A DNA stretch of 32,687 bases from Prevotella sp. (GTDB taxonomy: Bacteria; Bacteroidota; Bacteroidia; Bacteroidales; Bacteroidaceae). Shown here piece after piece: positions 3,877 through 31,083 of this stretch. Location: contig JAFRPY010000028.1 of the NCBI GenBank assembly GCA_017428925.1, forward strand, positions 1 to 32,687. The letters run 5' to 3'. The notes beneath the pieces were generated by a model. The model saw nothing but the letters and a program-made list of their open reading frames with translations. It was not told where the DNA came from and searched no databases. Made by a program: the position numbers and the translations under genes. Within the stretch, counting starts at the first letter, position 1. Each line of letters starts with the position of its first letter.

Positions 3877-3964
3877 GAGCAAAAGATAAGGAATTGATGA
3901 GCAAAAGATAAGGATTTGACGAGCAAAAGATAGGGAATTGAAGAGCAAAAGATAAGGAATTCGT
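3877..3964. repeat. 22-bp tandem repeat, four copies
   Basis: Units start at 3877, 3899, 3921 and 3943, each opening GAGCAAAAGATAAGGAATT or a one- to two-base variant; the last three bases vary. A degenerate copy (GAGCAAAAAATTAGGATTTT) follows at 3975 after a 10-base offset. The period is exactly 22 bp. Function unknown. Confidence 0.9.
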
Positions 3965-4071
3965 GGAAAAAAATGAGCAAAAAATTAGGATTTTGGTTTG
4001 TTAACATCTCCTTGAAACCCTCAAATTCTCAAAAACCTACTCATTATCAATAGATTACACAAAAATCGCTC

Positions 4072-7164: not shown

Positions 7165-8294
7165 TCCCTAGTCAGCATTTCATAGCAGAGCTGAAACCAC
7201 ACCAGCACCACGGGGAGGGCCTTCAGCGCGTATGGCTGTACATACTCTTTGCGCAGGAACGAAGGGAAGAGGTCGCTGGGCGACAGGCTCGTCAAGACGA
7301 AGACAAACACCATCAGGAAGATATCCCATCGGGTGCGCTGCCAAGGACAGGCGGTATACCAAATGACCACACCGACAAGGGCGATGACATATCCGCTCGA
7401 CTCGCTGCCCGTAGAAAAAAGCACTACAAACATCAGTACCGAGGCCAGCAGCGTCTGGCGGAAGGCGATGTGGCGGTATTGCGACAGACGTAGATAAGGC
7501 AAGGCAAAAAGAATGAGCCCAGGAACAATGAGCCACAAGTCGCTGAACTGGAGGCCGGTGGTGCGGTGGACAAGTCCCAAGAGGGATATGTTCTGGGCGA
7601 TTGATGCCAGGTTCTCGCCGTTTTTCTCCGTGAGGCAGGCATACCACTCCCCGTATTGCTGAATGATATAGTCGGGGCCTGAGATAAGCATCGGTGCCAC
7701 AAACATGACGGCTGCCCAGCAGACGAGGCCGGCAATGAGTTTTCCCTTGTGGCGGGAAAAGAAGAAAAACGCCAACCCCACAATGCCATAAAGTTTGACA
7801 AAAGTGCCCAGCATAATCCAGAAGGCAGCCATGAAGTCGTGCTCGCGCTCGATGCAGTACCACGTGAGCAGAATGATGGCAGCAATGGCTATGTTGAACT
7901 GCTGCATATAAAGGGCCGTGAGCAGCTCATGGGCACAGAACCAGAGGATGAACAGCTGCTGGTAGTCGGTGAACAGGTTGCGGCGGACGGCCACGTAAAG
8001 GAATAGCGCGAGGCCAACGCACCAAAGCAACAACCCGAGCCATTCGGGAATGACGGCAAAGGGCGCTATGACCAAGGAGAAGAGCGGTCCGTAGTGGTTG
8101 ACGTCGAAATATTCCTGCGGATAGGCTTCGTAGAGCGATGTGCCCTGCCAGGTGTGCCAGAAGACGCCGCGGAAAATAAGAAAGTTATTGTCGCTATGGT
8201 ATTTCATGATGGCGGCAACAACACCAAGAATTATCCACAAACCCAGCAGCGTGCGGTAGTCGGTAACGACTGATTTCAGTTTTGCCTTGTTCAT
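7146..8294 (-). CDS. GT87-like (DUF2029) polytopic membrane glycosyltransferase
   Basis: 382 residues with about nine to eleven hydrophobic helices throughout. After the first helix (LLGLWIILGVVAAIMKY) comes a periplasmic loop with NNFLIFRGVFWHTWQGTSLYE and VNHYGPLFSLVIAPF. The Asp-poor loop and the YGPLF motif are typical of GT87/DUF2029 proteins, which in mycobacteria transfer mannose from polyprenyl-phosphate mannose. The match is by overall pattern, so a general GT-C membrane transferase is the safer call. It starts 15 bases after the stop of the DUF4139 gene on the same strand, so both may share the promoter at 10264-10271. Its 3' end overlaps the convergent GT2 gene. Confidence 0.75.
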   Translation of the reverse strand: MNKAKLKSVVTDYRTLLGLWIILGVVAAIMKYHSDNNFLIFRGVFWHTWQGTSLYEAYPQEYFDVNHYGPLFSLVIAPFAVIPEWLGLLLWCVGLALFLYVAVRRNLFTDYQQLFILWFCAHELLTALYMQQFNIAIAAIILLTWYCIEREHDFMAAFWIMLGTFVKLYGIVGLAFFFFSRHKGKLIAGLVCWAAVMFVAPMLISGPDYIIQQYGEWYACLTEKNGENLASIAQNISLLGLVHRTTGLQFSDLWLIVPGLILFALPYLRLSQYRHIAFRQTLLASVLMFVVLFSTGSESSGYVIALVGVVIWYTACPWQRTRWDIFLMVFVFVLTSLSPSDLFPSFLRKEYVQPYALKALPVVLVWFQLCYEMLTRDYSKTS

Positions 8295-8309
8295 TTTTTC
8301 AGCTTATTC

Positions 8310-10220
8310 TTATTCTACAACCAACCGGCGGTTCTTGGGATACTTGACGCGGTATTGCACGATGAACTCCCGCTGCTCGTTGGGCTGGAGTTTCAGTTGC
8401 CAGACGACAATGCCCGTTGACTTATCCAACTGTCCACCGCTGAGTTCCTCGGTGGTGACAGTGATATTGGAGTTCTGCGAGACAGGTATCTGATCCTGCA
8501 GTGTGAGTGAAACTGCTTCCTTGCGGCTGTTCTTGACCGTGATGCGCCAAGTCATATTCTGCTTCTGATTGGAAGCCAGCAGGCGACGAGTGGAGCGGTC
8601 GGCCACTTTCGTGCGCTGAATGCGGATTCCATTATCCCTGCCTAATGAGAAATGCAGCGTGTCGCTGGTCACCATGGGATCGAGGATGGTCTTTCCGACG
8701 AACGAATTCTCGAAATAGACATTGGCTTCGCCTTCGAGCAGATTATGCTGCTGCCAGTCGGTGGCATCGGCCACGAGGAACGCATCCTTGTCAGCCCTCG
8801 GAATGCCAAGATACTGATAGGTAGCGGGGAGCTGGTAGCGGGCTATCTCGGTGGTAGTGGTCTTACCGTCGGATGACAGCGTGAGCGGCTGCCTGATATC
8901 GAACTCGTAGCCGAACTGGGCCTTCTGTTCATTAACGGTAATCAACTCGCTTTCCGGCATTTCCTTTTCCTTTGAAACGGCAATTCCCGGTACCTTTCCA
9001 TCAAGTGCCATAGCGGCATCTTCCTGTTTGCGGCTGACCTTGCCTTTTCCCGGTTTGCTCACACCATAACCTACGACCACCACTTCCTGCAATGCGGCAG
9101 TATCCTCTTTCATCCTGACATTCAGGGTAGAATTGTTGACGTTGTGCGTCTGAGTAAGATACCCGACATAGGCGAATTTCAACTGGTTCTTGCCACGGGG
9201 CAGGGCGATGCTGTAGCGTCCGTTGACGTCGGTAACCGTACCAAGACTTGTGCCTGTCACCATGACAGAACAACCTATCAATGGTTCCCCTTCTTCGTCG
9301 AGCACGACACCCGTCACGCTGCCTTCTACGGCCGACTCGTTGTCATAGCGGGGAGCCTGCTTGCCATAGTCAATCCAATAGGTGCGCAACTCTGGGGCAA
9401 TGTTGGAACGATTAGGATTGGCCGACGAGAGGGTCACAGGAATGTTCTTCCATTCCTCTTTGGTGTTTTGGAACATGTTGGCCTTATACGACAGTTGCAG
9501 GGGTTGGTCGAGTCCTTCGGAGCGAAGGTCGTAAGTGGGATACCAACCAGCATTCCTGACATAATAAGACAGTTCGAACTCTACCTTGCCAGCCTGCGGC
9601 ACCTGCAGTTTAAGGTCTGCCTCGGTAAAGGCCTTCATCTTCAGATGGGCAACGGAATCAGCAGTTTTTTCCTGTTGCTCGCGTTTCTCGGCCAGCACTG
9701 CCAGTTCCTGGTCGATGGCGATAGCCTTTTTCTTCAGTTCAAGCGTCTCTTGGGCATAGTAGTTGTTCAGTTCCTTGATATTGACCAACGGGGTAACCAC
9801 CGTGCGGTTGCCCGTAGAGCAATTGGTCTTCAACAATTCCAACTGGGCATTCACCACCTCCAGTTGTGCCTTCAGTTCCCTTTCTTTGTCGGCAGTCTGT
9901 TTCACCTTTTGTTCAGCCTCGCGCAACTGCTTTACTTGCTGCATGCTGTCGGGATATGTCGTACGATAGTTCACCCCAAGCACGGTAAGTTTTCCCCGTG
10001 CCTTAATCTGCATACTCTTCACGTCGGTATAGGGTGAAAGCCCCGTGAAGGTGATGACCTGCTCACCCGCCGTCAGGTTTACGGAATGGGTACGTTCCAC
10101 CTGGGCGCCATTTGTAAACACCGTCACGTGCTTAATATTTGCTGTTACTTTCTTGTTTTCACCATTTGCCGCAGTCACCAGCATCAGTGCCACGGCCATC
10201 ATAAGAACTCTTGCTTTCAT
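8310..10220 (-). CDS. DUF4139 (MuiA-like) exported protein with embedded CarboxypepD_reg segment
   Basis: 636 residues. Signal peptide at 1-20 (MKARVLMMAVALMLVTAANG). Residues about 28-125 match the DUF4140 N-terminal domain (VTVFTNGAQVERT, LSPYTDVKSMQI). Two charged, heptad-like stretches (about 92-132 and 150-190) suggest a coiled coil. The DUF4139 beta-sandwich begins near 210 (VEFELSYYVRNAGWYPTYDLR) and resumes after 430, ending RVKYPKNRRLVVE. Inserted at about 300-415 is a carboxypeptidase-regulatory-like module (SVTGVVLDEEGEPLIG, TVTDVNGRYSIALP) followed by EVVVVGYG and LDGKVPGI, which closely resemble the N-terminal extension of SusC/TonB-dependent receptors. The family is annotated as mucoidy inhibitor A but its biochemistry is unknown. 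Probably periplasmic or outer-membrane associated. Confidence 0.85.
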   Translation of the reverse strand: MKARVLMMAVALMLVTAANGENKKVTANIKHVTVFTNGAQVERTHSVNLTAGEQVITFTGLSPYTDVKSMQIKARGKLTVLGVNYRTTYPDSMQQVKQLREAEQKVKQTADKERELKAQLEVVNAQLELLKTNCSTGNRTVVTPLVNIKELNNYYAQETLELKKKAIAIDQELAVLAEKREQQEKTADSVAHLKMKAFTEADLKLQVPQAGKVEFELSYYVRNAGWYPTYDLRSEGLDQPLQLSYKANMFQNTKEEWKNIPVTLSSANPNRSNIAPELRTYWIDYGKQAPRYDNESAVEGSVTGVVLDEEGEPLIGCSVMVTGTSLGTVTDVNGRYSIALPRGKNQLKFAYVGYLTQTHNVNNSTLNVRMKEDTAALQEVVVVGYGVSKPGKGKVSRKQEDAAMALDGKVPGIAVSKEKEMPESELITVNEQKAQFGYEFDIRQPLTLSSDGKTTTTEIARYQLPATYQYLGIPRADKDAFLVADATDWQQHNLLEGEANVYFENSFVGKTILDPMVTSDTLHFSLGRDNGIRIQRTKVADRSTRRLLASNQKQNMTWRITVKNSRKEAVSLTLQDQIPVSQNSNITVTTEELSGGQLDKSTGIVVWQLKLQPNEQREFIVQYRVKYPKNRRLVVE

Positions 10221-10263
10221 GTATATTTGATTGTCATTTCTGCATTGATTGGAAATTCGTTTG

Positions 10264-10271
10264 CAAATATA
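10264..10271 (-). promoter_or_regulatory. -7 element (TATATTTG) of the DUF4139-GT87 unit
   Basis: The minus strand reads TATATTTG, an exact TAnnTTTG match, 43 bases upstream of the ATG at 10220. The -33 position holds a weak CTTG near 10292-10295. Confidence 0.55.
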
Positions 10272-10355
10272 ATAAAAATTATGTAAAGGGGCAAGTTTTA
10301 CCTTTTTTCTCGCTAAATTGCGAAATTATTCAATGACTAAATTAGGTATTGAGAA

Positions 10356-11273
10356 TTAATCCCTCTGGGAGGCGATATTTCGCGGATGATGCTGTAGTAT
10401 TTCCTCGCGCAGGGTAGTGGTGTCGATGTGGGTGTAGATTTCGGTGGTGCCGATGGATTCGTGTCCCAGCATGGCCTGGATGGCCCGCAAGTCGGCACCG
10501 CCTTCTAAAAGTGCTGTGGCAAACGAATGGCGGAGGGTGTGGGGAGAGATGGTTTTCTTGATGCCTGCCTCTTCGGCTGTCCGTTTGATCATGATGAGAA
10601 TCATGGTGCGCGTCAGCCGTGCGCCGCAGCGGTTCAGGAATACATAGTCTTCGTTTCCAGGTTTTATTTTCATGTGGCAGCGGACGGCGAACCACAGATT
10701 GAGTTCTTTGACGGCGCGTGGCGATATAGGTACAAGCCGTTCCTTGCGCCCCTTGCCTGTTACCCGTATGTAGCCCTCGTCGAGATAGAGGTTGCTCATG
10801 GGGAGGTTGACCAGTTCCGATACGCGCAGTCCGCACGAGAAGAGCACTTCGATAATGGCGCGGTTGCGGTGCCCTTCGGCTTTCGACAGGTCGATGGCAG
10901 CCTCCAGTTGGTCTACCTCTGCCGTTGTGAGGAATTCGGGCAGGTGCTCCCCTTGTTTTGGGGCTTCAAGGAGTTCGGCGGGGTCGTTTTCAATCCAGCC
11001 GTCGAGCAGCAGGAACCTATAGAACGAGCGCACGCCGCAGAGGATGCGGGCCTGGGAGGATGCCGCGATGCCCAAGTCGTGGAGTGAGGCGGAGAAATGT
11101 TCCAGGTCGTCGATGGTAACTTCCAGCGGGTCTTTCTGTTCACCTTTTAGGTAGACGAGCAGTTTCTGCACGTCGCGCATATAGGCGTCCAGCGTGTTTG
11201 CCGTGAACCCTTTCTGCAGTTTCAAGTAGCGCTGATATTGTCTCAGTGCGTCTTTCCGTTCTTTCTTCTCCAT
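10356..11273 (-). CDS. xerD: Tyrosine recombinase, XerD type
   Basis: 305 residues, the normal XerC/XerD length. The N-terminal core-binding SAM-like domain covers about 8-95 (YQRYLKLQKGFTANTLDAY). All catalytic residues are present: R150 in SCGLRVSEL, K174 in GKGRKERLVP, H245 and R248 in SPHTLRHSFA, H271 in LGHESIGTTEIY, and nucleophile Y280. Xer recombinases resolve chromosome dimers at dif with a partner and FtsK. Full-length sequence and ordinary composition argue for the housekeeping enzyme rather than an integrase, though an attachment site was not looked for beyond this window. A well-spaced promoter precedes it. It lies on the left border of the AT-rich region holding the ATPase and cas genes, divergent from both. 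Confidence 0.9.
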   Translation of the reverse strand: MEKKERKDALRQYQRYLKLQKGFTANTLDAYMRDVQKLLVYLKGEQKDPLEVTIDDLEHFSASLHDLGIAASSQARILCGVRSFYRFLLLDGWIENDPAELLEAPKQGEHLPEFLTTAEVDQLEAAIDLSKAEGHRNRAIIEVLFSCGLRVSELVNLPMSNLYLDEGYIRVTGKGRKERLVPISPRAVKELNLWFAVRCHMKIKPGNEDYVFLNRCGARLTRTMILIMIKRTAEEAGIKKTISPHTLRHSFATALLEGGADLRAIQAMLGHESIGTTEIYTHIDTTTLREEILQHHPRNIASQRD

Positions 11274-12753: not shown

Positions 12754-14934
12754 ATGGAATATAACGACAAAACATATATAGCCCACTCCGCAAATTCATG
12801 CGGTATCATGCAAACAATGAAAGAACATTGTTTGGGTGTTGGTAAATTCATGAGAGAATTTGCCCTCTCAGAATCGTTTGAAGACTTATATGAGTTTTGT
12901 GGACTCATTCATGATATGGGAAAGTACTCGGATAGTTTTCAAAAGCACATCTCTGGAGTTAAGAATATAGTTAGGCATTCTATATATGGTGCCATTTTTG
13001 CCAAAGAGAAATCTCTTATGGAAGTTGCTATTCCTATATATGGACATCATGCAGGAATGCCTAATTGTCCTGATATGCTCCAAGATATGAAGGCAGAACT
13101 CAAATCTTGTAATGATACATATAATGAAATTTGTACAGAATGGAGCAAGGATACGGATAAACAAGTTACAATTCCAAATAATCAGGCGTTTCGGGATATT
13201 CCAGATGTTCTGCAAAAAGAATTGTTTGTAAGGATGCTATTCAGTTCCATCGTTGATGCCGATAGCCTTGATACAGAAAGGCATTTTAGTGAAGAGAGAT
13301 TCAATGCAAGAACTTGTTTACCTTTGAATCCTAATCTTTTACTAAACAAATTACAGGAAAAAAGGCTAAGGTCATTTGAGAATGACTTAGATAATAAATC
13401 GCAAAGGATTAATATCTTGCGCAACTCTGTTCGTTTATATGCTGAATCTAAGGCAAATCTTCCATTGGGATTCTACTCTCTAACCCTTCCAACAGGAATG
13501 GGAAAGACTCTTTGCAGTATTAATTGGGCTTTGCATCATGCGCAATATCATAGGAATATTAAAAGGATTATCGTTGTACTACCATTTATCAGCATTATTG
13601 ACCAGACAGCAGAGGAATTCAAAAGTATTTTTAATGATGATGAATGTGACTATGTGCTGGAACACCATTCAAATGTAATTCATTTCGATAACGAAGATAA
13701 TGATGAGTATTCTTCAAAACAATTAGCAACAGAGAACTGGGACTATCCTATTATTGTTACAACAGCAGTACAATTCTTTGAGTCTCTTTTCAGCAATAAA
13801 AGATCTGCCTGTAGGAAATTGCACAACATTCAAGATTCAATTGTTATCTTTGACGAAATACAAACACTTCCGTTATATGTTACAGAGCCAACGCTGGCTA
13901 TGCTTGATAACCTACAGCAGTTATGCAGATGCAGTTTGTTATTTTGTACTGCGACTCAACCCGATTTCAACTCGCGAAAAGGTTTTTGCGGAATAAATCA
14001 TATAGAATCCTTGGTAGAATACCCACAGCGTATTTTTGATGAAACAAGACGTGTAAAATATCATTCTATTGATGACTATAATGAATTATCCATTTCAGAG
14101 TTGGCAGATATAGTTGTTAAGAATCGGAATTCATCACTTGTTATATTCAATACCAAAAAGAAAGCTCGATTGTTTTTTGATGAACTAAGTGGAAACAATA
14201 GTTACAAGTTGTTCTATCTATCTACTACGATGTGTCCTATTCATCGAAAAGAGGAAATTCAAAGCATTCGTAAGGCACTTGAAAATAATGAATCTATTAT
14301 AGTTAGTTCTACACAGCTTATCGAAGCAGGTGTTGATATGGATTTTCCTACTGTATATAGAGAGCTGGCTCCATTAGAATCTATAATACAATCAGCGGGA
14401 AGATGCAATCGAGAAGGAAAAGAAGTGAAGGGTGATGTCTATTTGTTTAAGTTGATAGAATCAAGTCAACCAAGCAGGGAATATCGTACGTTCCTAGAGT
14501 TCGCAAATCTACTTTATAAAGGGAACGAAGAAAAATTGTATACCCATGATTTCTATAGTTTTTATTATAGGGAACTTGTCAAAAACTATGCAGACACTGA
14601 TAAACTAAGCATTACAGAGGACAGGAAGAATTTATTGTTCCAAACTGTAGCAGAGAAATACAAGATCATTGATAGTAAAACTCAAACTCTTTTTGTCTAT
14701 GATTACAGTGAAGATAGTAAACAGTTATATTACCAAATAAAAGATAAGGAGTACTTGTCAAGGCAAGAGCGACAACAGATTGCACAATATAGTGTCCAAG
14801 TATATGACAAGTTTATCGAAGATAATAAGTCTTTTATCGGTTATGAGCGGTGTGGACTATTAGTATGGCATGGGTCATATTCATCTGATTATGGTTTGTC
14901 CTTTAATGAAGAAATCAATGTGTTAATCAAATAA
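12754..14934 (+). CDS. cas3: CRISPR-associated nuclease-helicase Cas3 (type I-C)
   Basis: 726 residues, usual length for I-C Cas3. An N-terminal HD nuclease domain carries H11, the HD pair H53-D54 in LIHDMGKY, and later His residues (HHAG). The superfamily-2 helicase follows: Walker A LPTGMGKT (245-252), DEIQ (367-370) in the Walker B position, CTATQPD (motif III), and QSAGRCNREG (546-555, motif VI). Cas3 is recruited by Cascade bound to target DNA, and nicks and unwinds the displaced strand from 3' to 5'. It is the first gene of the operon; cas5c starts 10 bases after its stop codon. A nine-codon upstream frame (12735-12764) overlaps the cas3 start. Confidence 0.97.
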   Translation: MEYNDKTYIAHSANSCGIMQTMKEHCLGVGKFMREFALSESFEDLYEFCGLIHDMGKYSDSFQKHISGVKNIVRHSIYGAIFAKEKSLMEVAIPIYGHHAGMPNCPDMLQDMKAELKSCNDTYNEICTEWSKDTDKQVTIPNNQAFRDIPDVLQKELFVRMLFSSIVDADSLDTERHFSEERFNARTCLPLNPNLLLNKLQEKRLRSFENDLDNKSQRINILRNSVRLYAESKANLPLGFYSLTLPTGMGKTLCSINWALHHAQYHRNIKRIIVVLPFISIIDQTAEEFKSIFNDDECDYVLEHHSNVIHFDNEDNDEYSSKQLATENWDYPIIVTTAVQFFESLFSNKRSACRKLHNIQDSIVIFDEIQTLPLYVTEPTLAMLDNLQQLCRCSLLFCTATQPDFNSRKGFCGINHIESLVEYPQRIFDETRRVKYHSIDDYNELSISELADIVVKNRNSSLVIFNTKKKARLFFDELSGNNSYKLFYLSTTMCPIHRKEEIQSIRKALENNESIIVSSTQLIEAGVDMDFPTVYRELAPLESIIQSAGRCNREGKEVKGDVYLFKLIESSQPSREYRTFLEFANLLYKGNEEKLYTHDFYSFYYRELVKNYADTDKLSITEDRKNLLFQTVAEKYKIIDSKTQTLFVYDYSEDSKQLYYQIKDKEYLSRQERQQIAQYSVQVYDKFIEDNKSFIGYERCGLLVWHGSYSSDYGLSFNEEINVLIK

Positions 14935-14944
14935 GAAAAAAGTT

Positions 14945-15682
14945 ATGCTTGACAAAGAAATTGTTAGACTCAAAGTAACTGGCGACTTCGCTTGTTTTAC
15001 CCGCCCAGATTTAAAGGTGGAGCGTATGAGTTATCCATGTATGACACCTTCTGCGGCACGTGGTGTTTTGGAATCTATTCTTTGGAAAAAGGAATTCCAG
15101 TGGTTCATACGAAGAATCATTGTTCTCAACCCAATCAAGTTTGCTTCCATAAAGAGAAATGAAATATCCAAGCGACAGAATCCCAAAGGATTACCAATTG
15201 AAATTACAGAGAATCGAGTACAGCGAAATAGCATCGTTCTGAAAGATGTCGCATATATTATTGAGGCTTCTGTATATGTCGATGAGTCCTTGATTGAGAA
15301 ATCAAAAGGAAGTAATAATCCGCTTACGGTGATGAAATATCGTACAATGTTTGAACGGAGAGTAAGAAAGGGGCAATGTTGGCATCAACCATGCTTAGGT
15401 ACCAGAGAATTTGCTGCAGACTTTTCGGTACCTAGTGATTTGGACAAACCGTTAGATATTACTTATCCTATTGGAAGTATGTTCTATGATATGTACTATG
15501 ATGAGAAAGGAAAAGCAATACCTGAGTTCTTTTACGATGTGGCTATTGTAAACGGTATTCTTGAATGTCCTGAAGATAGAGCAACAAAGATGTTGTCTTC
15601 TTCACATATACTGCCAAAAGCGGATGAAGATTATAATAGTGTGGTTTACGAACACTATAAAGAAGAGGAGGCAGAATTATGA
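14945..15682 (+). CDS. cas5c: Cas5c (Cas5d), crRNA-processing subunit of type I-C Cascade
   Basis: 245 residues. The N-terminal RAMP fold has VTGDFACFTRPDLKVERMSYPCMTPSAARG, and the characteristic I-C motif RRVRKGQCWHQPCLGTREF lies at about 139-156. In type I-C systems, which lack Cas6, Cas5 cuts pre-crRNA at the base of the repeat hairpin and stays on the crRNA 5' handle. In the Bacillus halodurans enzyme a Tyr, Lys and His form the active site; K142 and H147 in the motif above are candidates here (inference). Its stop overlaps the cas8c start by four bases (ATGA), a sign of translational coupling. Confidence 0.95.
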   Translation: MLDKEIVRLKVTGDFACFTRPDLKVERMSYPCMTPSAARGVLESILWKKEFQWFIRRIIVLNPIKFASIKRNEISKRQNPKGLPIEITENRVQRNSIVLKDVAYIIEASVYVDESLIEKSKGSNNPLTVMKYRTMFERRVRKGQCWHQPCLGTREFAADFSVPSDLDKPLDITYPIGSMFYDMYYDEKGKAIPEFFYDVAIVNGILECPEDRATKMLSSSHILPKADEDYNSVVYEHYKEEEAEL

Positions 15683-17376
15683 TACAAGAGTTAGTGGAGT
15701 TTGGCAAACGTGTTACAAAAGGCAAAAGCATGGCTCTTAAAGAGGAACCTTTTGTCATAGACCTAGTTATTAATGAAGAAGGTGAGTTCCAGCGTTTTAT
15801 TGTTGGTGAGAAGCGAACAATTGAAACAGAAGTACTTACTGCAAAAAAAGGTAAAGCACGTTTCCTTCTTGACAAAAGTGAAGAAGTGTTAGGTATTGGG
15901 GAAGGAGCGGAAAAGAAACATAAACTCTTCATGAAAAAACTAGAGTTGTTCAGAGGTGTACAATCTTTAGATCCAATATTCAAGTTTTATGATGAGAACA
16001 ATGAGAATGGCATAAAAAAGTCAGTATTATTATTTGAGAAATTGGACAAGAAAGCCCAAAAGGAGAATATGACGTTTATGGTTGATACAACACGATTGTT
16101 GGAAAGGGACGAGATTCGAAATGCAATCATTGAAAAGTATGCAAAAAACGAAAGAAAGTTGTCTAATGGCAAGATTTGTTCAATTTGTGGAACCTCTAAT
16201 AGCCCTGTGTTGGACGAACCTCATGGATTGGTTAAGATGCCCAAAGGTCAAACTGCTGGTTGCGCTTTGATTTCTTACAACGAAAATGCTTTTGAATCGT
16301 ATGGATTGAAAGGGAATTTGAATTCGTCAATTTGTAGGGATTGTGCAAGAAATTATATAGAAGGTTTGCGTTTTCTTCTATCCGATGGATACAATGTAGA
16401 AGGAGACGATAAACAGAAAGCACATTTTCACTATAATCATAGGATAAAAATAAGCGATAATACTGTTGTCTTGTTTTGGACTCGAGAAGATACAGATGTG
16501 TTAGATCCATTTTCGGTATATGATACTCCAGATGCAACAGAGATAAAGAATCTATTTGATTCTGTCTGGAATGGCAAACAGGATATTGGTTCAGTTGTTG
16601 ATACGAATATGTTTTACACATGTACATTATCATCTGCTGCTGCACGTATTGCTGTTCGCGATTGGACTGCCATTTGTTTAGGTGAATATAAGAAGAACTT
16701 GGCAGAGTGGTTTCAAGACATAGAAATGGTGAATAATACAGGTGAATTAACATACAGTCCATTAAAATGGTTGATAAATGCGACCCAGCGTGACAAAAAA
16801 ACAGGAGAGAAAATTAAAGCTGATCTCAACTCGAGAACAAGAATTGGTACAATTCTATGGAATGCTTCAATAAGAGGACATTCATATAAGATACCTCTTG
16901 AGGTTTTGCAATATGTACTTAACAGGATATGGAAAAAAGATAAATTCTCATTAGAACGGGCTGCCCTTATAAAATTAGTCATTAACAGAAATACAAATAA
17001 AAATATGAAATCAACATTAGAAGAAACAAACACAAGCGTAGCCTACTTGTGTGGAAGATTGTTCGCTGTCATTGAAGCAATGCAGTGGAAGGCTATTGGT
17101 AATGTTAACAATGGTGTCAAGGAACGCTATTTTGCTGCTACAGCCTCTCAACCATCTATCTTAGGTACGCTCTTAACAAAGAATGTACCTATATATCAGC
17201 ATAAAATAGGTGGTTATCTGGCAAAAGAACTAAATGAGATTGCAGGAAGAATAAGTGAAGTTGGTAGTTTTCCTCAACGCTTTACTACTATTGAACAGGG
17301 AGAGTTCGCATTGGGGTATTATTTCCAGAGGAACCACAAAAAAGATAATGATAATCAAGATAATATTAACTCATAA
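15679..17376 (+). CDS. cas8c: Cas8c (Csd1), large subunit of type I-C Cascade
   Basis: 565 residues, close to the usual Csd1 length. The N-terminal part reads LVEFGKRVTKGKSMALKEEPFVIDLVI and continues through FLLDKSEEVLGIG. Two CxxC pairs, C167/C170 (ICSICG) and C219/C222 (ICRDC), form a likely zinc-binding knuckle. The C-terminal part holds the family motif RYFAATASQPSILGTLL. Cas8c reads the PAM and stabilises the R-loop. In characterised I-C systems the C-terminal part is also made separately as Cas11c from an internal start; a candidate is listed at 17005. It overlaps cas5c by four bases, and cas7c follows after 12 bases. The gene is visibly AT-rich. Confidence 0.95.
   Translation: MIQELVEFGKRVTKGKSMALKEEPFVIDLVINEEGEFQRFIVGEKRTIETEVLTAKKGKARFLLDKSEEVLGIGEGAEKKHKLFMKKLELFRGVQSLDPIFKFYDENNENGIKKSVLLFEKLDKKAQKENMTFMVDTTRLLERDEIRNAIIEKYAKNERKLSNGKICSICGTSNSPVLDEPHGLVKMPKGQTAGCALISYNENAFESYGLKGNLNSSICRDCARNYIEGLRFLLSDGYNVEGDDKQKAHFHYNHRIKISDNTVVLFWTREDTDVLDPFSVYDTPDATEIKNLFDSVWNGKQDIGSVVDTNMFYTCTLSSAAARIAVRDWTAICLGEYKKNLAEWFQDIEMVNNTGELTYSPLKWLINATQRDKKTGEKIKADLNSRTRIGTILWNASIRGHSYKIPLEVLQYVLNRIWKKDKFSLERAALIKLVINRNTNKNMKSTLEETNTSVAYLCGRLFAVIEAMQWKAIGNVNNGVKERYFAATASQPSILGTLLTKNVPIYQHKIGGYLAKELNEIAGRISEVGSFPQRFTTIEQGEFALGYYFQRNHKKDNDNQDNINS
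17005..17376 (+). CDS. cas11c: Probable internal Cas11c small subunit (in-frame start inside cas8c)
   Basis: An in-frame ATG at 17005 (residue 443 of Cas8c) would give 123 residues, MKSTLEETNTSVAYLCG to the shared stop. Separately translated Cas11c proteins of about 120 residues are known from type I-C systems. The ATG is preceded by an A-rich stretch (AAATACAAATAAAAAT), the kind of ribosome-binding context used in this phylum. The product is mostly helical, as expected of Cas11. Start choice is inference; ribosome profiling or mass spectrometry would decide. Confidence 0.6.
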   Translation: MKSTLEETNTSVAYLCGRLFAVIEAMQWKAIGNVNNGVKERYFAATASQPSILGTLLTKNVPIYQHKIGGYLAKELNEIAGRISEVGSFPQRFTTIEQGEFALGYYFQRNHKKDNDNQDNINS

Positions 17377-17388
17377 ATTATAGCAGAT

Positions 17389-18222
17389 ATGGAAAATTTC
17401 ATTAAGAACAAGTATGATTTCGTATTTCTTTACGATGTAAAGGACGGTAATCCCAACGGTGATCCAGATTTTGACAATCAGCCGAGAATTGATTTTGAAA
17501 CAAGAGAAGGACTTGTCTCAGACGTGTGCATTAAGCGTAAAGTCCGTAACTACATACAGCTAAAAGTTGAGACCGGTGAACTTGATGAAGCTAAATATAA
17601 TATTTTTATCAGACAGGGAAACATTCTTAATGACATCATTAACGGAGAGAAGAAAAAGGCAGATAATGATGAAAAGAAGGGTAGAATGAGTATGTGTGAT
17701 AATTATTATGACATCCGCACATTTGGTGCAGTCCTTAGCACTGGAGATGGGCTTGGAGTAGTTCGTGGACCTGTGCAATTTGTTTTCTCGCGTAGCATAG
17801 ATTCTGTAGATAGCCGGACTCATTCCCTAACAAGATGTTGTGTCGTTGATAATGCAGATTCAACTACTTTTGGCAATAAATCAACTGTCAGTTATGGCCT
17901 CTATCGTATGCATGGCTATGTTTCTGCTTTCGATGGGGAGAAGTGCCATTTCACAGAAGATGATTTGTATCTTCTATGGGAAGCCCTTGCAAATGCTTTT
18001 GAACACGACCATTCTGCAGCCCGTGGTGAAATGAATGCTCGTGCTCTTGTCGTATTCAAACATGAATCAAAACTTGGTAATGCTCGTTCTGCCCAGTTAT
18101 TCAATCTTGTGAAGATTGAGAAGAAAGAAGGTGTAGTTTATCCGCGTTCATTTGAAGATTACACGGTAACTATCAATAGGGAGAATCTTCCTGCTGGAGT
18201 TACCATCGAAGAACTTATCTAA
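17389..18222 (+). CDS. cas7c: Cas7c (Csd2), backbone subunit of type I-C Cascade
   Basis: 277 residues. The N-terminus has the Csd2 signature YDFVFLYDVKDGNPNGDPD followed by PRIDFETREGLVSDVCIKRKVRNYI. A mid-region with RTFGAVLS and VRGPVQFVFSRSIDSV is the usual RAMP core and thumb. Near the end, FEHDHSAARGEMNARALVVFKHESKLGNA is also typical. Several copies wrap the crRNA spacer to form the Cascade filament. The next gene (RhuM family) starts only six bases after its stop, on the same strand, so they are very probably co-transcribed. Confidence 0.96.
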   Translation: MENFIKNKYDFVFLYDVKDGNPNGDPDFDNQPRIDFETREGLVSDVCIKRKVRNYIQLKVETGELDEAKYNIFIRQGNILNDIINGEKKKADNDEKKGRMSMCDNYYDIRTFGAVLSTGDGLGVVRGPVQFVFSRSIDSVDSRTHSLTRCCVVDNADSTTFGNKSTVSYGLYRMHGYVSAFDGEKCHFTEDDLYLLWEALANAFEHDHSAARGEMNARALVVFKHESKLGNARSAQLFNLVKIEKKEGVVYPRSFEDYTVTINRENLPAGVTIEELI

Positions 18223-18228
18223 CAGATT

Positions 18229-19257
18229 ATGGCAAAAAAACACGAGATAAGAAACAGTACGGCAGAGTTCCTGTTTTTCCAGATAGAGAATAAGGAGCAG
18301 GGGGTTGAGGTGATGTATGCCGATGAGACCATTTGGTGTACACAGAAAGCAATGGCTACCCTTTTCGATGTGGGAGTTTCAGCCATCAGCAAGCACCTCG
18401 CAAATGTCTTTGAGACTGGAGAACTGAAGGAAGAGTCAACTATTTCCAAAATGGAAACAGTTCAACAAGAGGGTGAACGAACCGTGAAACGATCAGTTGT
18501 CATGTACAAGTTGGACGCCATCATCGCGGTAGGTTACCGCGTGAACAGCATCCGTGCCACTCAGTTCAGACAGTGGGCTACAAACGTGCTACGTCAATAT
18601 GCCATACGTGGATTTGTGCTTGACAAGAAACGCATGGAGAACGGAACTTTCTTGGGTGAGGACTATTTTGAGCACTTGCTGGCGGAGATTCGTGAAATAC
18701 GTCTTAGTGAGCGGCGCTTTTACCAAAAGTTGACAGACATCTATGCTACGAGCATGGACTACAACAAAGATTCACCCACAACAAGACAATTCTTCAAGCT
18801 AATTCAAAATAAGATGCATTATGCAGTGCATGGCCGCACTGCGGCGGAACTCATAATGCAGCGTGCTAATGCAGAAAAGGAACACATGGGACTGACCACA
18901 TGGGAGAATGCCCCCGATGGGAAGATTGTTAAAACGGATGTGTCAATAGCCAAGAACTACTTGAAGCAAATAGAGCTGGATGATATGGGACGTATCGTGA
19001 CGGCAGTGCTGGAATTTGCCGAAAGCCGAGCCAAACGGCATGTTCCCATGACTATGGAGGACTGGGCCAAGCGTATCGATGCGTATCTGAGTAGCGATGA
19101 GCGTCCGTTGCTTGACAATGCTGGGAGCGTGAGCCATGAAGATGCGGTGCTTCATGCTGAGACAGAATTTGAGAAATATCGCATTGTTCAGGACCGTTTG
19201 TTCCAAAGCGATTTTGACAAATTCTTAGGAACATTGCCATTTGAAGAAGAATCATAA
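18229..19257 (+). CDS. RhuM-family protein inserted in the cas operon
   Basis: 342 residues matching the Virulence_RhuM family (first described in Salmonella pathogenicity island 3). Residues about 27-100 resemble a KilA-N/winged-helix-like DNA-binding region (VMYADETIWCTQKAMATLFDVGVSAISKHLANVF, SVVMYKLDAIIAVGYRVNS), with the family motif RATQFRQWATNVLRQYAIRGF. The C-terminal half is helical, with ERRFYQKLTDIYATSMDY and HYAVHGRTAAELI, and HMGLTTW. The biochemical role of the family is unknown; members frequently occur in or near restriction-modification loci. Here it starts six bases after cas7c and ends 13 bases before the preferred cas4 start, in the same direction, between the interference and adaptation modules. 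It looks intact. Possible roles are regulation or an accessory defence function (inference). Confidence 0.88.
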   Translation: MAKKHEIRNSTAEFLFFQIENKEQGVEVMYADETIWCTQKAMATLFDVGVSAISKHLANVFETGELKEESTISKMETVQQEGERTVKRSVVMYKLDAIIAVGYRVNSIRATQFRQWATNVLRQYAIRGFVLDKKRMENGTFLGEDYFEHLLAEIREIRLSERRFYQKLTDIYATSMDYNKDSPTTRQFFKLIQNKMHYAVHGRTAAELIMQRANAEKEHMGLTTWENAPDGKIVKTDVSIAKNYLKQIELDDMGRIVTAVLEFAESRAKRHVPMTMEDWAKRIDAYLSSDERPLLDNAGSVSHEDAVLHAETEFEKYRIVQDRLFQSDFDKFLGTLPFEEES

Positions 19258-19270
19258 CAGCATAATAAAA

Positions 19271-19942
19271 ATGTATAGTGATGACGATATGCTCATGTTG
19301 TCGGGGATTCAGCACTTCAGATTTTGTCCCCGGCAATGGGCGTTGATTCACATAGAGCAACAGTGGGACGATAATCGGTTGACGGTAGAGGGCGAGATTC
19401 TGCATAAGCATGTGGACGATGCCGCCTACCGTCAGAAGTGCGGCGACTACATCACCCTGCGTTCTGTGAGCATTGCTTCGCACGAACTGGGACTATACGG
19501 TTTTTCGGATGCCATTGAGCTACACCCCACGGATGATGAAGAGAACTGTATCACGCATCCCAAATATCCGGGACGGTGGTTGCCTTATCTCATAGAATAC
19601 AAACATGGACGACCGAAGAAGAACGAGGTAGACGAGGTGCAGTTAGCTGCACAGGCAATGTGCTTGGAAGAGCAATATGGCATCCACGTCTCTTTGGGAG
19701 CTTTCTTCTATTATGAGATAAGGCACCGGGTGGAAGTGGAAATCACGGAACATCTGCGCGAAATTGTGCGTCACTGTGCCGTGGAGATGCACCGCGTGTT
19801 CCAGAGCGGACGTCTGCCAACCATACAATATGGCAATTATTGCGACCGCTGTTCTCTTAATAATTTTTGTATGCCCCGAACGGCCAACCAGCCGGCGGCA
19901 TCAACCTATTTGAAACGGAATTTGTATGAGGAAATTACTTAA
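19271..19942 (+). CDS. cas4: Cas4 (type I-C), adaptation nuclease
   Basis: 223 residues. The start at 19271 gives the family N-terminus MYSDDDMLMLSGIQHFRFCP; an in-frame ATG at 19241 would overlap the RhuM gene by 17 bases and is less likely. The iron-sulfur cluster cysteines are C19 (FRFCPRQW) and C191, C194, C200 (CDRCSLNNFC). The RecB-like nuclease core shows GFSDAIEL and LIEYKHGRPKK. Cas4 trims prespacers with Cas1-Cas2 and selects PAM-bearing ends. Its 3' end overlaps cas1 by 17 bases. GC content by eye is higher than in cas3-cas7c and closer to the chromosome. Confidence 0.95.
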   Translation: MYSDDDMLMLSGIQHFRFCPRQWALIHIEQQWDDNRLTVEGEILHKHVDDAAYRQKCGDYITLRSVSIASHELGLYGFSDAIELHPTDDEENCITHPKYPGRWLPYLIEYKHGRPKKNEVDEVQLAAQAMCLEEQYGIHVSLGAFFYYEIRHRVEVEITEHLREIVRHCAVEMHRVFQSGRLPTIQYGNYCDRCSLNNFCMPRTANQPAASTYLKRNLYEEIT

Positions 19943-20948
19943 TACACTCTATATCACGACGCCGGAGTCTTATCTGAGCAAGGACGGCATGAACGTGGTG
20001 GTCTCAGTGAAACAGCAAGAGGTGTTTCGCATCCCTGTCATCAACATCGAGAGCATTGTCACGTTCGGCTATATGGGTGCCAGTCCAGGACTGATGAAAT
20101 TATGTACTGAAAACAACGTGTCGCTGACATTCCTTTCGCCCAATGGCCGATTTGTCAGTCGTATCCAGGGACAAACGCGAGGTAATGTTCTACTGCGGAA
20201 GACCCAATATCAGTTGGCCGAGGACGAACGGTGGACGCTCCATGTGGCGCAGGTGATGATTGGCGGTAAAATACAGAATTATCGCAACATTCTGCGCCGC
20301 TATATTCGCGACTATGGTGATAACGAAGAGGTAGAGGATGTAGTCAAAGCACAGGAGGGGTTTAAGCGTGATGTGTTTCGGTCAACGGATAAGAAGACGC
20401 TTTCGGGTGTGGAAGGCATGGCGGCCAATCGCTACTTCGAGGTGCTGCCCCTGTTGATGACACAACAGAAGGATGCCTTTCCCTTCACGGGTAGAAACCG
20501 CCGTCCACCTAAAGATGCTGTGAATGCAATGCTGTCACTGGCGTACACACTTATCACAAACGACATCACGGCTGCCCTTGAGACGGTGGGACTTGATCCT
20601 TATGTGGGGTTCCTGCATACCCTACGACCAGGCCGTGCGTCGCTGTCACTAGACATGGTGGAGGAACTGAGGGCCTATTTAGGCGATCGTTTTGTCTTGT
20701 CGCTCATCAACCGTAGACAAATCACGCCCAGTGATTTCCTCTATCAAGGAGAGAAAGGAGTCCTGCTGACAGACAGTGGTCGGCGGACTTTCTTGACAGC
20801 ATGGCAAAACCGCAAGAAAGAAACCATAGTGCATCCTTATCTGAATGAGAAGATTCCTGTTGGCCTGATACCCCATGCACAGGCGATGCTGTTGGCTCGG
20901 TATATGAGAAATGACATTGACGATTATCCTGTATTCCTAATTAAATAA
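19926..20948 (+). CDS. cas1: Cas1 integrase (type I-C)
   Basis: 340 residues, the normal I-C length. The N-terminal beta domain opens KLLNTLYITTPESYLSKDG. Catalytic metal ligands lie in the helical domain: E163 (LSGVEGMAANRYF), H231 (YVGFLHTLRPGRASL), and D243 or a neighbouring acidic residue in SLDMVEELR. FTGRNRRPPKDAVNAMLSLAY is a typical Cas1 stretch. With Cas2 it inserts new spacers at the leader end of the array. It overlaps cas4 by 17 bases, and cas2 begins two bases after its stop, so adaptation genes are translationally linked. Confidence 0.97.
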   Translation: MRKLLNTLYITTPESYLSKDGMNVVVSVKQQEVFRIPVINIESIVTFGYMGASPGLMKLCTENNVSLTFLSPNGRFVSRIQGQTRGNVLLRKTQYQLAEDERWTLHVAQVMIGGKIQNYRNILRRYIRDYGDNEEVEDVVKAQEGFKRDVFRSTDKKTLSGVEGMAANRYFEVLPLLMTQQKDAFPFTGRNRRPPKDAVNAMLSLAYTLITNDITAALETVGLDPYVGFLHTLRPGRASLSLDMVEELRAYLGDRFVLSLINRRQITPSDFLYQGEKGVLLTDSGRRTFLTAWQNRKKETIVHPYLNEKIPVGLIPHAQAMLLARYMRNDIDDYPVFLIK

Positions 20949-20950
20949 AG

Positions 20951-21241
20951 ATGTATATACTAATTACATACGATGTAGATACTGTCAGTAAGATGAGGCA
21001 GAAAAGGTTGCGGAAGGTGGCGCGTATTTGTAGGGACTATGGCCAGCGTGTGCAGAATTCTGTATTTGAATGTGAAGTCACTGAGGTCCAATATGTTAAG
21101 CTGAAGGAATCGCTATCTGCTGCAATGAACAAGAGCCTTGACAGCATCCGTTTCTATCATCTCAACAAGAATGAGAACAGGCGAGTTGAAACAATGGGAG
21201 TGGAGAAGGCATTCAATATGAATGAAGTAATAATACTCTGA
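20951..21241 (+). CDS. cas2: Cas2 (type I-C)
   Basis: 96 residues. The N-terminal strand MYILITYDVDT carries the conserved Asp pair, and the ferredoxin-like fold continues with RLRKVARICRDYGQRVQNSVFECEV and LDSIRFYHL. It forms the dimer that bridges two Cas1 dimers in the spacer-integration complex. It is the last cas gene; the leader and array follow directly. Confidence 0.96.
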   Translation: MYILITYDVDTVSKMRQKRLRKVARICRDYGQRVQNSVFECEVTEVQYVKLKESLSAAMNKSLDSIRFYHLNKNENRRVETMGVEKAFNMNEVIIL

Positions 21242-21399: not shown

Positions 21400-22089
21400 G
21401 TCGCCTCCCATGTGGGGGCGTGGATTGAAACTGAACCACTGCCACGGACTATCGCCAAAGAGTATGTCGCCTCCCATGTGGGGGCGTGGATTGAAACATC
21501 AACAAAATGTCATTTGACTGTCGCAGGCGCGTCGCCTCCCATGTGGGGGCGTGGATTGAAACTCGATGTCACCGCACTTGTAGAGTTTGAAAATCGTCGC
21601 CTCCCATGTGGGGGCGTGGATTGAAACCCGTTTAGCGGTTTTGAGAGCTTGAAAGCTTGAAAGTCGCCTCCCATGTGGGGGCGTGGATTGAAACACTTGG
21701 GATAATGTTTTGAAGTTCGTCAACGAGAGTCGCCTCCCATGTGGGGGCGTGGATTGAAACTCAATGTCACCGCACTTGTAGAGTTTGAAAATCTGTCGCC
21801 TCCCATGTGGGGGCGTGGATTGAAACAACGGATAGCCCCTATCCCCGTCCGAACCAAAAGGTCGCCTCCCATGTGGGGGCGTGGATTGAAACATAAAATT
21901 CTGCAACTGATGAACAAAACAACAGTGTCGCCTCCCATGTGGGGGCGTGGATTGAAACGGTGCAAGTTTAACTATAAAAACGTTTTTATTATGTCGCCTC
22001 CCATGTGGGGGCGTGGATTGAAACCTTATCTTCTCGTCCTCACTCTCTTTGAGTTCGGTCGCCTCCCGTGTGGGGGCGTAGGTTAAATG
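21400..22089 (+). CRISPR. Type I-C CRISPR array, 11 repeats and 10 spacers
   Basis: The 32-bp repeat starts GTCGCCTCCCATGTGGG and ends GTGGATTGAAAC. A 7-bp stem with one G-T pair (CGCCTCC with GGGGGCG) is suited to Cas5c cleavage, leaving the GGATTGAAAC-type 5' handle. Repeats start at 21400, 21466, 21531, 21596, 21663, 21729, 21795, 21861, 21927, 21993 and 22058. Spacers are 33-35 bp (34, 33, 33, 35, 34, 34, 34, 34, 34, 33). The first ten repeats are identical; the last (22058-22089) is degenerate at six positions, which marks the leader-distal end and confirms the leader is on the cas2 side. Spacers 3 (21563-21595) and 6 (21761-21794) are almost the same. No spacer target was noticed in this window. 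Confidence 0.98.
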
Positions 22090-29949: not shown

Positions 29950-31083
29950 ATGCAACAAGCCATTCAATTGACGAACGCGTTTGCCGAGATTCATTTGTTT
30001 GATGCAGGAACCGAAGTAAAGGAGTACCATGTGATGATTCATGTGGACAATCCTTTGCTGCCCTTCGCCCAGCAGCTCGATGCCATTGTCGGTGCCTATC
30101 GCCAGTTACTCGACGGACAGCTTAAAGGTTGCGTTGCCGCCTTTAAGCGTTATTTCGTCAGCGATGCCACCAATCAGATGGACCTCATCCAGAAGGCTGA
30201 GCCCGCCGATTCGGCTTGGGCCGTCATCCAGCAGCCACCGCTCGACGGTACGAAGCTGGCCCTGTGGGTTTATCTGCTTACGGGCGTTGAAAAGCGTTTC
30301 CTTGAGAGTGGTCTTTGGGAAATCAGCCATAATGGCTACCGCCACCTTTGGTTCTGCGGTGCCAACAGTCAGGCTGATGGTTCTCACGACGAAACGATAG
30401 AGATTCTGAATGGTTACGTCAGCAAGCTTGAACAAGAAGGACTCACTCTCGAGAAGAACTGCATACGCACATGGCTCTTCGTGAACGATGTGGACAACCA
30501 CTATTCCGGAATGGTAAGGGCGCGCAATGAGGTGTTCGACGAGCAGCAACTCACCACCGACACCCATTTCATCGCATCAACGGGTATTGGCGGTCGGCAG
30601 GCCGATCCCTCGCGCCATGTCATGATGGATGCATACGCCATCGACGGCATCCGCCGCGAACAGGTCCATTACCTCCATGCCACCAGCCATCTCAACCGCA
30701 CCAGCGAGTATGGGGTGCGCTTCGAGCGCGGCACATACGTCGACTACGGTTCCCGCCGCAAGATTTTCATCTCGGGTACGGCCAGCATCAACAATAAGGG
30801 TGAGATTCTTCATCGCGGCGACATCCGCTGCCAGACCATCCGCATGCTGGAGAATGTCGAGACGTTGCTCTGCGAGGCCGATGCCACTTTCGACGACGTC
30901 GAGGTGATGGTGGTCTATCTGCGCGACATAGCCGACTATGCCGTGGTCAAGCAAATCTACGATGAGCGTTTCCCCGGCAAGCCGCGAGTCTTCGTGAATG
31001 CACCAGTGTGCCGTCCGGGATGGCTTGTCGAGATGGAATGCCAGGCCGACAAGAAAATTTCAACCGAGTATCCAGCACTATAG
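29950..31083 (+). CDS. Rid/chorismatase-like protein, paralog 1
   Basis: 377 residues, no signal peptide. The C-terminal third resembles a Rid (YjgF/L-PSP) domain: KIFISGTASINNKGEILHRGD, then QTIRMLENVETLL, VMVVYLRDIADY and the end motif CRPGWLVEMECQA. The middle part has CIRTWLFVNDVDNHYSGMV and ASTGIGGRQADP, a layout seen in FkbO/Hyg5-type chorismatases, which also have a Rid-like fold. The N-terminal 100 residues (VMIHVDNPLLPFAQQLDAIV, VIQQPPLDGTKLALW) are not assigned. Function is unknown: a Rid-type deaminase, a chorismatase-like hydrolase or a non-enzymatic relative are all possible. It has its own promoter and a close paralog 112 bases downstream. Confidence 0.75.
   Translation: MQQAIQLTNAFAEIHLFDAGTEVKEYHVMIHVDNPLLPFAQQLDAIVGAYRQLLDGQLKGCVAAFKRYFVSDATNQMDLIQKAEPADSAWAVIQQPPLDGTKLALWVYLLTGVEKRFLESGLWEISHNGYRHLWFCGANSQADGSHDETIEILNGYVSKLEQEGLTLEKNCIRTWLFVNDVDNHYSGMVRARNEVFDEQQLTTDTHFIASTGIGGRQADPSRHVMMDAYAIDGIRREQVHYLHATSHLNRTSEYGVRFERGTYVDYGSRRKIFISGTASINNKGEILHRGDIRCQTIRMLENVETLLCEADATFDDVEVMVVYLRDIADYAVVKQIYDERFPGKPRVFVNAPVCRPGWLVEMECQADKKISTEYPAL

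Follow-up and report, generated by a model that had tools for sequence, protein, structure and literature searches.

A RhuM-family gene recurs between the interference and adaptation genes of type I-C CRISPR operons and adjoins other CRISPR types in Bacteroidota

The type I-C CRISPR operon of a Prevotella genome carries an additional gene of the RhuM family between cas7 and cas4. Our comparisons show that this arrangement recurs in other Bacteroidota, where members of the same RhuM clade also adjoin I-PGING, Cas9 and Cas12a loci. The fixed slot, together with the relatives beside several CRISPR types and often at the borders of exchanged segments, suggests that rhuM is probably a companion part of CRISPR loci rather than an accident. 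We give about an even chance to the more specific reading that this clade is an optional DNA-binding CRISPR companion, or defence accessory, of Bacteroidota. That reading draws on comparisons of sequence, namely the recurrence, the position, the open frame, purifying selection, the variety of CRISPR types next to a single clade, the exchange of modules and a variable recognition part.

The rhuM gene and its recurrence in type I-C operons

The window, by which we mean the whole 32,687-nt stretch analysed (contig JAFRPY010000028.1 of Prevotella sp. assembly GCA_017428925.1), holds a complete type I-C system with all seven cas genes and an array (Table 1). Assigned with Pfam, NCBIfam and PADLOC, the genes follow one another on the plus strand as cas3, cas5c, cas8c, cas7c, rhuM, cas4, cas1c and cas2. 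The canonical order is cas3-cas5-cas8-cas7-cas4-cas1-cas2; the window shares its seven cas genes and repeat type and differs by the one extra gene, which breaks the uninterrupted order between cas7 and cas4. The original prediction had placed an intact RhuM gene of 342 codons at this boundary of interference and adaptation genes, and the ORF calls and the PF13310 match bear out the gene, its coordinates and its spacing: the frame starts with ATG, has no internal stops, follows the cas7 stop codon by 6 nt (CAGATT) and precedes the cas4 ATG by 13 nt. The protein matches its family over the full length (E 1.7e-108, 362 bits against a curated cut-off of 33.7, model positions 1-249 of 252) and also matches the PADLOC model PDC-S05 (E 4.5e-153). 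A chance ORF, which we had considered, is ruled out by the open frame and the PF13310 match.

Table 1 Coordinates of the features discussed (positions in the window unless another locus is named)
Feature	Position	Strand	Evidence
cas3	12754..14934	+	Pfam, NCBIfam, PADLOC
cas5c	14945..15682	+	Pfam, NCBIfam, PADLOC
cas8c (csd1)	15679..17376	+	Pfam, NCBIfam, PADLOC
cas7c (csd2)	17389..18222	+	Pfam, NCBIfam, PADLOC
cas7-rhuM gap, 6 nt, border between shuffled modules	18223..18228	+	gap measurements, module comparison
rhuM, inserted gene, 342 aa	18229..19257	+	PF13310, PDC-S05
RhuM residues 44-92, variable recognition part of predicted winged helix	18358..18504	+	entropy, block pattern, pN, model
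C-terminal domain of RhuM (residues 141-285), helical and strongly conserved	18649..19083	+	conservation, pN, model
rhuM-cas4 gap, 13 nt	19258..19270	+	ORF coordinates
cas4	19271..19942	+	Pfam, NCBIfam, PADLOC
cas1c	19926..20948	+	Pfam, NCBIfam, PADLOC
cas2	20951..21241	+	Pfam, NCBIfam, PADLOC
CRISPR array, repeat GTCGCCTCCCATGTGGGGGCGTGGATTGAAAC, 10 repeats and a degenerate last copy	21400..22089	+	repeat search
Exchanged-system pair	L050 5619-16594; L250 1737-14501		

We know of no established biochemistry for RhuM, a widespread family. Its known members (PF13310/PDC-S05) occur in phage, satellite phage, plasmid and restriction contexts; unlike them, the window gene is fixed in an I-C operon, and the promoter pattern scanned reveals no promoter-like site belonging to it. 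Neither gap beside rhuM holds a listed promoter-like or terminator-like site in a sigma-70-type scan, which does not cover Bacteroidota promoters and whose promoter count over the region is close to that expected by chance (32 against 24.8; for terminators, 12 against 6.4). A pattern that we take to be that of Bacteroides promoters occurs upstream of none of 18 I-C-linked rhuM copies, as opposed to 25 of 63 copies without I-C hits and 86 of 1260 shuffles; because the DNA upstream of I-C-linked copies is coding, its composition differs from that of the other copies in this comparison. The same pattern matched only 5 of 15 assessable cas3 upstream regions, that of the window not being among those matched. 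The lack of the pattern before I-C-linked copies fits an operon gene without its own promoter, and I-C-linked rhuM is probably on the transcript of the I-C operon.

Recurrence was assessed by searching for cas7c in three samples, each of which includes the window genome; the gene was found in 14 of 200 genus genomes, 16 of 393 order genomes and 28 of 296 phylum genomes. The resulting census comprises 56 different I-C genomes, with the locus examined in every one. RhuM lies between cas7 and cas4 in 10 of the 56 (window, L009, L011, L020, L021, L102, L103, L107, L114 and L238), that is, in 5 of 14 genomes of the genus sample, 4 of 15 further ones of the order sample and 1 of 27 further ones of the phylum sample. 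The frame is open in nine of these ten loci and broken in L020, and two of the proteins are distant RhuMs (50% identity in L103, 45% in L238). Since rhuM recurs across species in the I-C slot, an insertion found only in this strain, on which the original prediction would have foundered, is ruled out.

The remaining 46 I-C genomes have no RhuM in the slot; in four of them (L113, L242, L243 and L245) the fetched piece lacks a cas4 match, and in L015, L016 and L240 the match is partial. A regular cas gene of type I-C would be present in most I-C loci, which at 10 of 56 rhuM is not. In a scan of named genomes we kept the best 80 RhuM loci, whose open frames, being those of the best-scoring loci, are a biased set. 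Twelve of the 80 have rhuM in the I-C slot, two of them on the same contigs as L009 and L102, and the distinct I-C loci with rhuM in the slot number 20. By their record titles they are mostly from uncultured Prevotellaceae and Bacteroidales, many of rumen or gut. The spacing in carriers bears on the proposed check of order and co-directionality: of 18 I-C loci measured, 16 have a cas7-rhuM gap of exactly 6 nt, and the two genes overlap in L021 and lie 12 nt apart in L103.

The order sample contains 191 RhuM matches (fragments counted) in 149 genomes, or 1.28 per genome. Assuming 3000 genes per genome, the probability for one given slot is about 0.0004, compared to 10 of 56 observed; because the genomes are related, this excess is an enrichment and not a clean probability. 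Within the same sample RhuM is found in 5 of 16 I-C genomes and in 0 of 80 non-I-C cas1 loci (p 7e-5, unadjusted), but the background would put only 0.3 RhuM in those 80 loci, so their lack of RhuM says little. These 80 loci, and 40 from the genus sample, are chosen parts of the cas1 rows, some of them cut by contig ends. We also considered whether rhuM goes with longer arrays: among the I-C loci compared, whose pieces differ in length, there is no sign of it, array length being no greater with rhuM.

Other CRISPR types and exchange at the edges of rhuM

Of the best 80 named RhuM loci, 20 are linked to CRISPR, including the 12 of type I-C; the count may be low, since cas genes were sought by tblastn with a small set of queries and arrays from exact seeds. 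In L033 rhuM stands between cas3 and cas4 of a type I-PGING operon, and L049 has rhuM together with a 41-residue piece of the same cas4. In L051 the order is rhuM, a 133-aa ORF, Cas9 (TIGR01865, 2.5e-150), cas1, cas2 and an array, while in L050 (Xylanibacter brevis ATCC 19188) rhuM is accompanied by a short array and by Cas12a (TIGR04330) on the opposite strand. Arrays lie within about 1 kb upstream of rhuM in L030 (44 repeats) and in the related loci L034 (26) and L046 (4); the repeat of L030 has TCTACTATTGTAGAT at its end, presumably a Cas12a-type ending. The genus sample has 42 places of close RhuM relatives, four of them I-C and three others (G178, G127 and G117) no more than 1.5 kb from a different cas1, and RhuM is present in 3 of its 40 fetched non-I-C cas1 loci, namely L248 (the L033 locus), L249 and L250.

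L076 presents two CRISPR types around one rhuM: positions 6559-10473 hold a type II cas1 and cas2, an array, rhuM and then directly an I-C-type array. The locus also has weak Cas9-like stretches, and no I-C cas gene was found on its 11.4-kb piece.

The gene had been proposed as an accessory of type I-C. It does recur in the I-C slot, but the clade also adjoins I-PGING, Cas9 and Cas12a loci, and RhuM is therefore not an accessory of that type only. The proposal had further called the arrangement undescribed. Reports that place RhuM in type I-C, I-PGING or Cas12a loci did not come up in our literature search, which left subscription papers and preprints outside, but for type II-C there is a precedent in print: RhuM-domain ORFs lie inside the cas cluster of Bacteroides fragilis, between cas1 and cas9 (PMC5704556, in the part available to us). 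L051, L076 and L250, with RhuM near Cas9 or a type II cas1, resemble that arrangement. The available part of the description differs from our loci in that it concerns one species, in which two ORFs separate cas1 from cas9 and the cluster also holds restriction genes, and covers no I-C, I-PGING or Cas12a locus. The RhuM clade beside all four of these types offers a testable setting for a family without known activity.

We then compared the histories of the genes around rhuM by means of quick trees. The cas7 genes of the I-C carriers form two lineages (starred), and starred cas1 clades mix both: the window with L011 and L021, L009 with L023 and L047, L041 with L048, and L045 with L107. In Mantel tests on 16 I-C loci, from which L020, L029, L103 and L238 were omitted because of breaks or distance, the distances of cas7 show no relation to those of cas4, cas1 and rhuM (r -0.05 to 0.01), cas4 and cas1 agree with r 0.84, and rhuM shows a weak correlation with both cas4 (r 0.305, p 0.002) and cas1 (r 0.305, p 0.007). 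By these comparisons the I-C interference and adaptation genes have been shuffled around rhuM, which tends to move with cas4-cas1-cas2.

Pairs of loci locate the borders. Between L009 and L023 identity rises abruptly no more than 30 nt from the start of rhuM, then stays high through cas1. The crossover does not coincide with the gap in every pair, since between L024 and L032 identity is already rising about 100 nt upstream of rhuM; moreover, the stronger conservation of rhuM relative to cas7 by itself raises identity there. In L045 and L107 the recognition part of rhuM itself differs. L033 and L249 have 2790 nt in common at 78%, a stretch that begins 8 nt downstream of the rhuM start and takes in the adaptation genes; their interference genes differ, the cas7 and cas8 of L033 having no match in L249. 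L050 and L250 are 98% identical over 4431 nt to just past rhuM, and 95-99% identical again beyond the locus. What lies between these flanks is the Cas12a locus in L050, but in L250 it is an array together with cas2 and cas1 of type II and a Cas9-like gene (32-37% identical to the L051 Cas9). With flanks and rhuM 98% identical and CRISPR types that differ, a whole system was exchanged beside an unchanged rhuM. Such exchange of CRISPR modules at the edge of rhuM, once of a whole system, amounts to a natural experiment in modular immunity.

A single insertion followed by strict vertical descent was considered and is unsupported: with the presence of I-C genes as the label, parsimony on a quick tree without bootstrap gives 13 changes, at least 5 of them forced by starred branches. 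In the same kind of tree the I-C-linked rhuM alleles intermix with other alleles.

Other genes in the slot and neighbours of copies without I-C genes

The exchange of systems beside an unchanged rhuM in L050 and L250 can also be read the other way, and this is the main rival to our interpretation: rhuM would be a passenger or a recombination anchor, a common mobile gene at CRISPR borders whose conserved DNA supplies homology for exchange and which gives CRISPR nothing. The I-C slot indeed takes other genes: the operon strand carries IS200-like transposases in L109 and L222 and DUF559 in L221, and the opposite strand HicA in L108 and PIN in L240. Moreover, 60 of the best 80 named RhuM loci have no detected CRISPR link, and the copies without I-C genes have few neighbour genes in common. 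When 84 of 101 neighbour proteins of such copies were scanned, no Pfam family was common to more than 4 and no PADLOC model to more than 3 of the 84 among the matches listed (25 of 89 Pfam families, 25 of 220 PADLOC models), all 220 models matching at least one neighbour. Several rhuM copies are also flanked by direct repeats.

Against a mere passenger stand the exact 6-nt spacing and the operon strand, which are found in two I-C lineages, the frame that is open in nine of ten census loci, and the concentration of the CRISPR link in close relatives: 19 of 35 named loci at 77% or more identity to the window protein are linked, as opposed to 1 of 45 below. Strand alone does not distinguish RhuM, since other cargo of the slot also lies on the operon strand; number does. 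Weighing both sides, we consider the passenger or anchor explanation somewhat unlikely.

Bro-N proteins also occupy the I-C slot on the operon strand, in L236, L247 and, truncated, in L241 (Pfam). In their C-terminal part those of L236 and L247 weakly resemble DinD (E 0.0015 and 1e-4, well short of the cut-off), and fragments in L227 and upstream of RhuM in L238 may be read as Bro-N/DinD-like genes. We found no literature on the BRO family with type I-C, in a search with subscription papers and preprints outside it. In L108 the cas7-cas4 gap holds, inside the I-C operon and on the opposite strand, the HicA toxin gene and an adjacent ORF, which has no Pfam match and which we take to be HicB-like.

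The direct repeats flank rhuM in seven loci without I-C neighbours (L043, L065, L067, L082, L084, L086 and L096), in L043 as a perfect 55-nt pair at 135-189 and 1257-1311, and are possibly the footprint of single-gene insertion. In L054, L055, L092 and the related loci L068 and L078, the rhuM stop is directly followed by a similar stretch of about 60 nt with an inverted repeat. PglX-like methyltransferase genes lie near rhuM in L036 and L038, and a DrmD-like helicase gene in L036, all under family cut-offs; these are possibly other defence loci beside the RhuM clade. RhuM in phage and plasmid records shows 44-71% identity among the matches listed, and a distant RhuM used as query against viral contigs found nothing.

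An association of RhuM with restriction genes was also part of the original prediction. A type I M gene is overlapped or adjoined by RhuM in two plasmid relatives, at least one of the 84 scanned neighbours, among the matches listed, is a type I methyltransferase, and the literature describes such contexts (PMC3710099, in the part available). According to the same source, as far as available, RhuM-like genes replace Doc toxins in restriction loci, are also fused to Doc and have been proposed to be toxins. RhuM could accordingly be an abortive-infection effector, a second layer beside CRISPR that is used when CRISPR fails. PADLOC lists the family as a defence candidate, at least 2 of the 84 neighbours are Fic/Doc proteins among the matches listed, and HicA or PIN takes the same slot elsewhere. 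However, sequence and structure searches recognised no toxin fold and no toxin relative of RhuM, the gaps of 6 and 13 nt beside rhuM hold no antitoxin gene, and the part of RhuM that varies is its recognition region. A toxin is in our judgement improbable.

The RhuM protein and its possible role

A first structure model of RhuM (pLDDT 56.5) was replaced by a second AlphaFold2 model (pLDDT 70.7, pTM 0.49), which presents a winged helix followed by a helical C-terminal part. A structure search with the second model gave 17 viral matches at E 0.001 or below, several of them named BRO-N, repressor or regulatory, with BRO-N, KilA-N and antirepressor proteins of phages among the structural relatives. 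The N-terminal part is thus predicted to be a BRO-N-like winged helix, and the DNA-binding look attributed to it beforehand is in line with the model and the structure search. RhuM would share this predicted fold with the BRO-N/KilA-N antirepressors and has a weak PHROG match to Ant, but it has a different C-terminal domain and no Pfam Bro-N match, PF13310 being the only family reported for the window protein at E 0.01.

Among solved structures only DdrC falls below 0.001 (E 4e-4). The superposition is poor (TM-score 0.22, rmsd 20 A), and RhuM has no sequence match to DdrC or to any other solved structure. DdrC of Deinococcus radiodurans binds ssDNA and dsDNA, protects DNA from nucleases and anneals strands (PMC5436757, in the part available). 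By the model, it is a lead for RhuM and not a sign of membership.

Variation is concentrated in the predicted winged helix. The C-terminal domain, by contrast, has residues that vary hardly or not at all (N194, K195, H197, H201, E207 and K242). The median pN is 0.34 in residues 44-92 compared to 0.05 in residues 141-285, and across 84 copies the recognition helix and wing of residues 44-92 occur as recombining blocks. Among I-C-linked copies the recognition helix reads VGVPAISKHL, VNIPAISKHL, CDRSVVTKHL or CSTDNVGLHL, with others elsewhere, and at least three recognition blocks can be told apart. The N- and C-terminal histories are uncorrelated (r 0.13, p 0.23). Such block-wise variation is like that of type I restriction specificity subunits. 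Overall pN/pS is 0.15 for rhuM and 0.26-0.39 for cas1, cas4 and cas7, and rhuM is by this measure under purifying selection. The ratio is 0.147 with I-C genes and, without them, 0.165 at identity of 77% or more and 0.229 overall; as copies without I-C genes are under about equal selection, the constraint does not show a Cas-linked role.

The winged helix, predicted to be like that of phage antirepressor and BRO proteins, would suit a regulator that adjusts the activity of the locus from its cas promoter or leader, and regulation of the operon had been among the roles first proposed. What weakens this role is the block-wise difference of the recognition part between cas-linked copies, with at least three blocks next to I-C genes. 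In addition, rhuM distances do not follow those of cas7, and I-C operons without rhuM are common. We regard regulation as very improbable.

As a companion of CRISPR, RhuM would act as follows. In I-C it sits between interference and adaptation genes with operon spacing, and would probably be made from the operon transcript. From the model we infer that it probably binds DNA through its N-terminal BRO-N-like winged helix, with a preference that would differ from copy to copy, and acts through the conserved helical C-terminal domain. It may act on broken DNA or on DNA of invaders, together with the CRISPR system present at the locus, either as a second layer of defence or as a modifier of what reaches the adaptation proteins.

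A narrower version places this clade at adaptation, independently of CRISPR type. RhuM would bind DNA ends or fragments and steer, protect or veto them before Cas1-Cas2, its swappable recognition part would change what is favoured, and at this boundary in I-C loci BRO-N proteins of another subfamily would have been taken on in the same function. Since the adaptation step is common to the types, rhuM would then be kept while the neighbouring CRISPR system is exchanged. We think this version unlikely; if true, action of RhuM and BRO-N proteins in adaptation would imply that a step between cutting and recording has gone unrecognised.

Several further features of the window and its genome were observed. 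The genome (85% complete, 122 contigs) holds further RhuM-like genes and fragments, with 43-44% identity where they are near full length. Two spacers of the window array (21563-21595 and 21761-21794) are nearly identical, which suggests related targets or repeated sampling; the 30 bases common to both have no exact match in the viral contigs searched. An AAA ATPase gene (PF01637, 11492-12631) lies directly upstream of cas3 on the same strand. The ORFs at 29950-31083 and 31196-32341 (377 and 381 aa) have stretches of 76-84% DNA identity at an offset of about 1258 nt and are a tandem duplication, and a short tandem repeat with the 22-nt unit GAGCAAAAGATAAGGAATTGAT is present in about 4-5 copies at 3877-3983.
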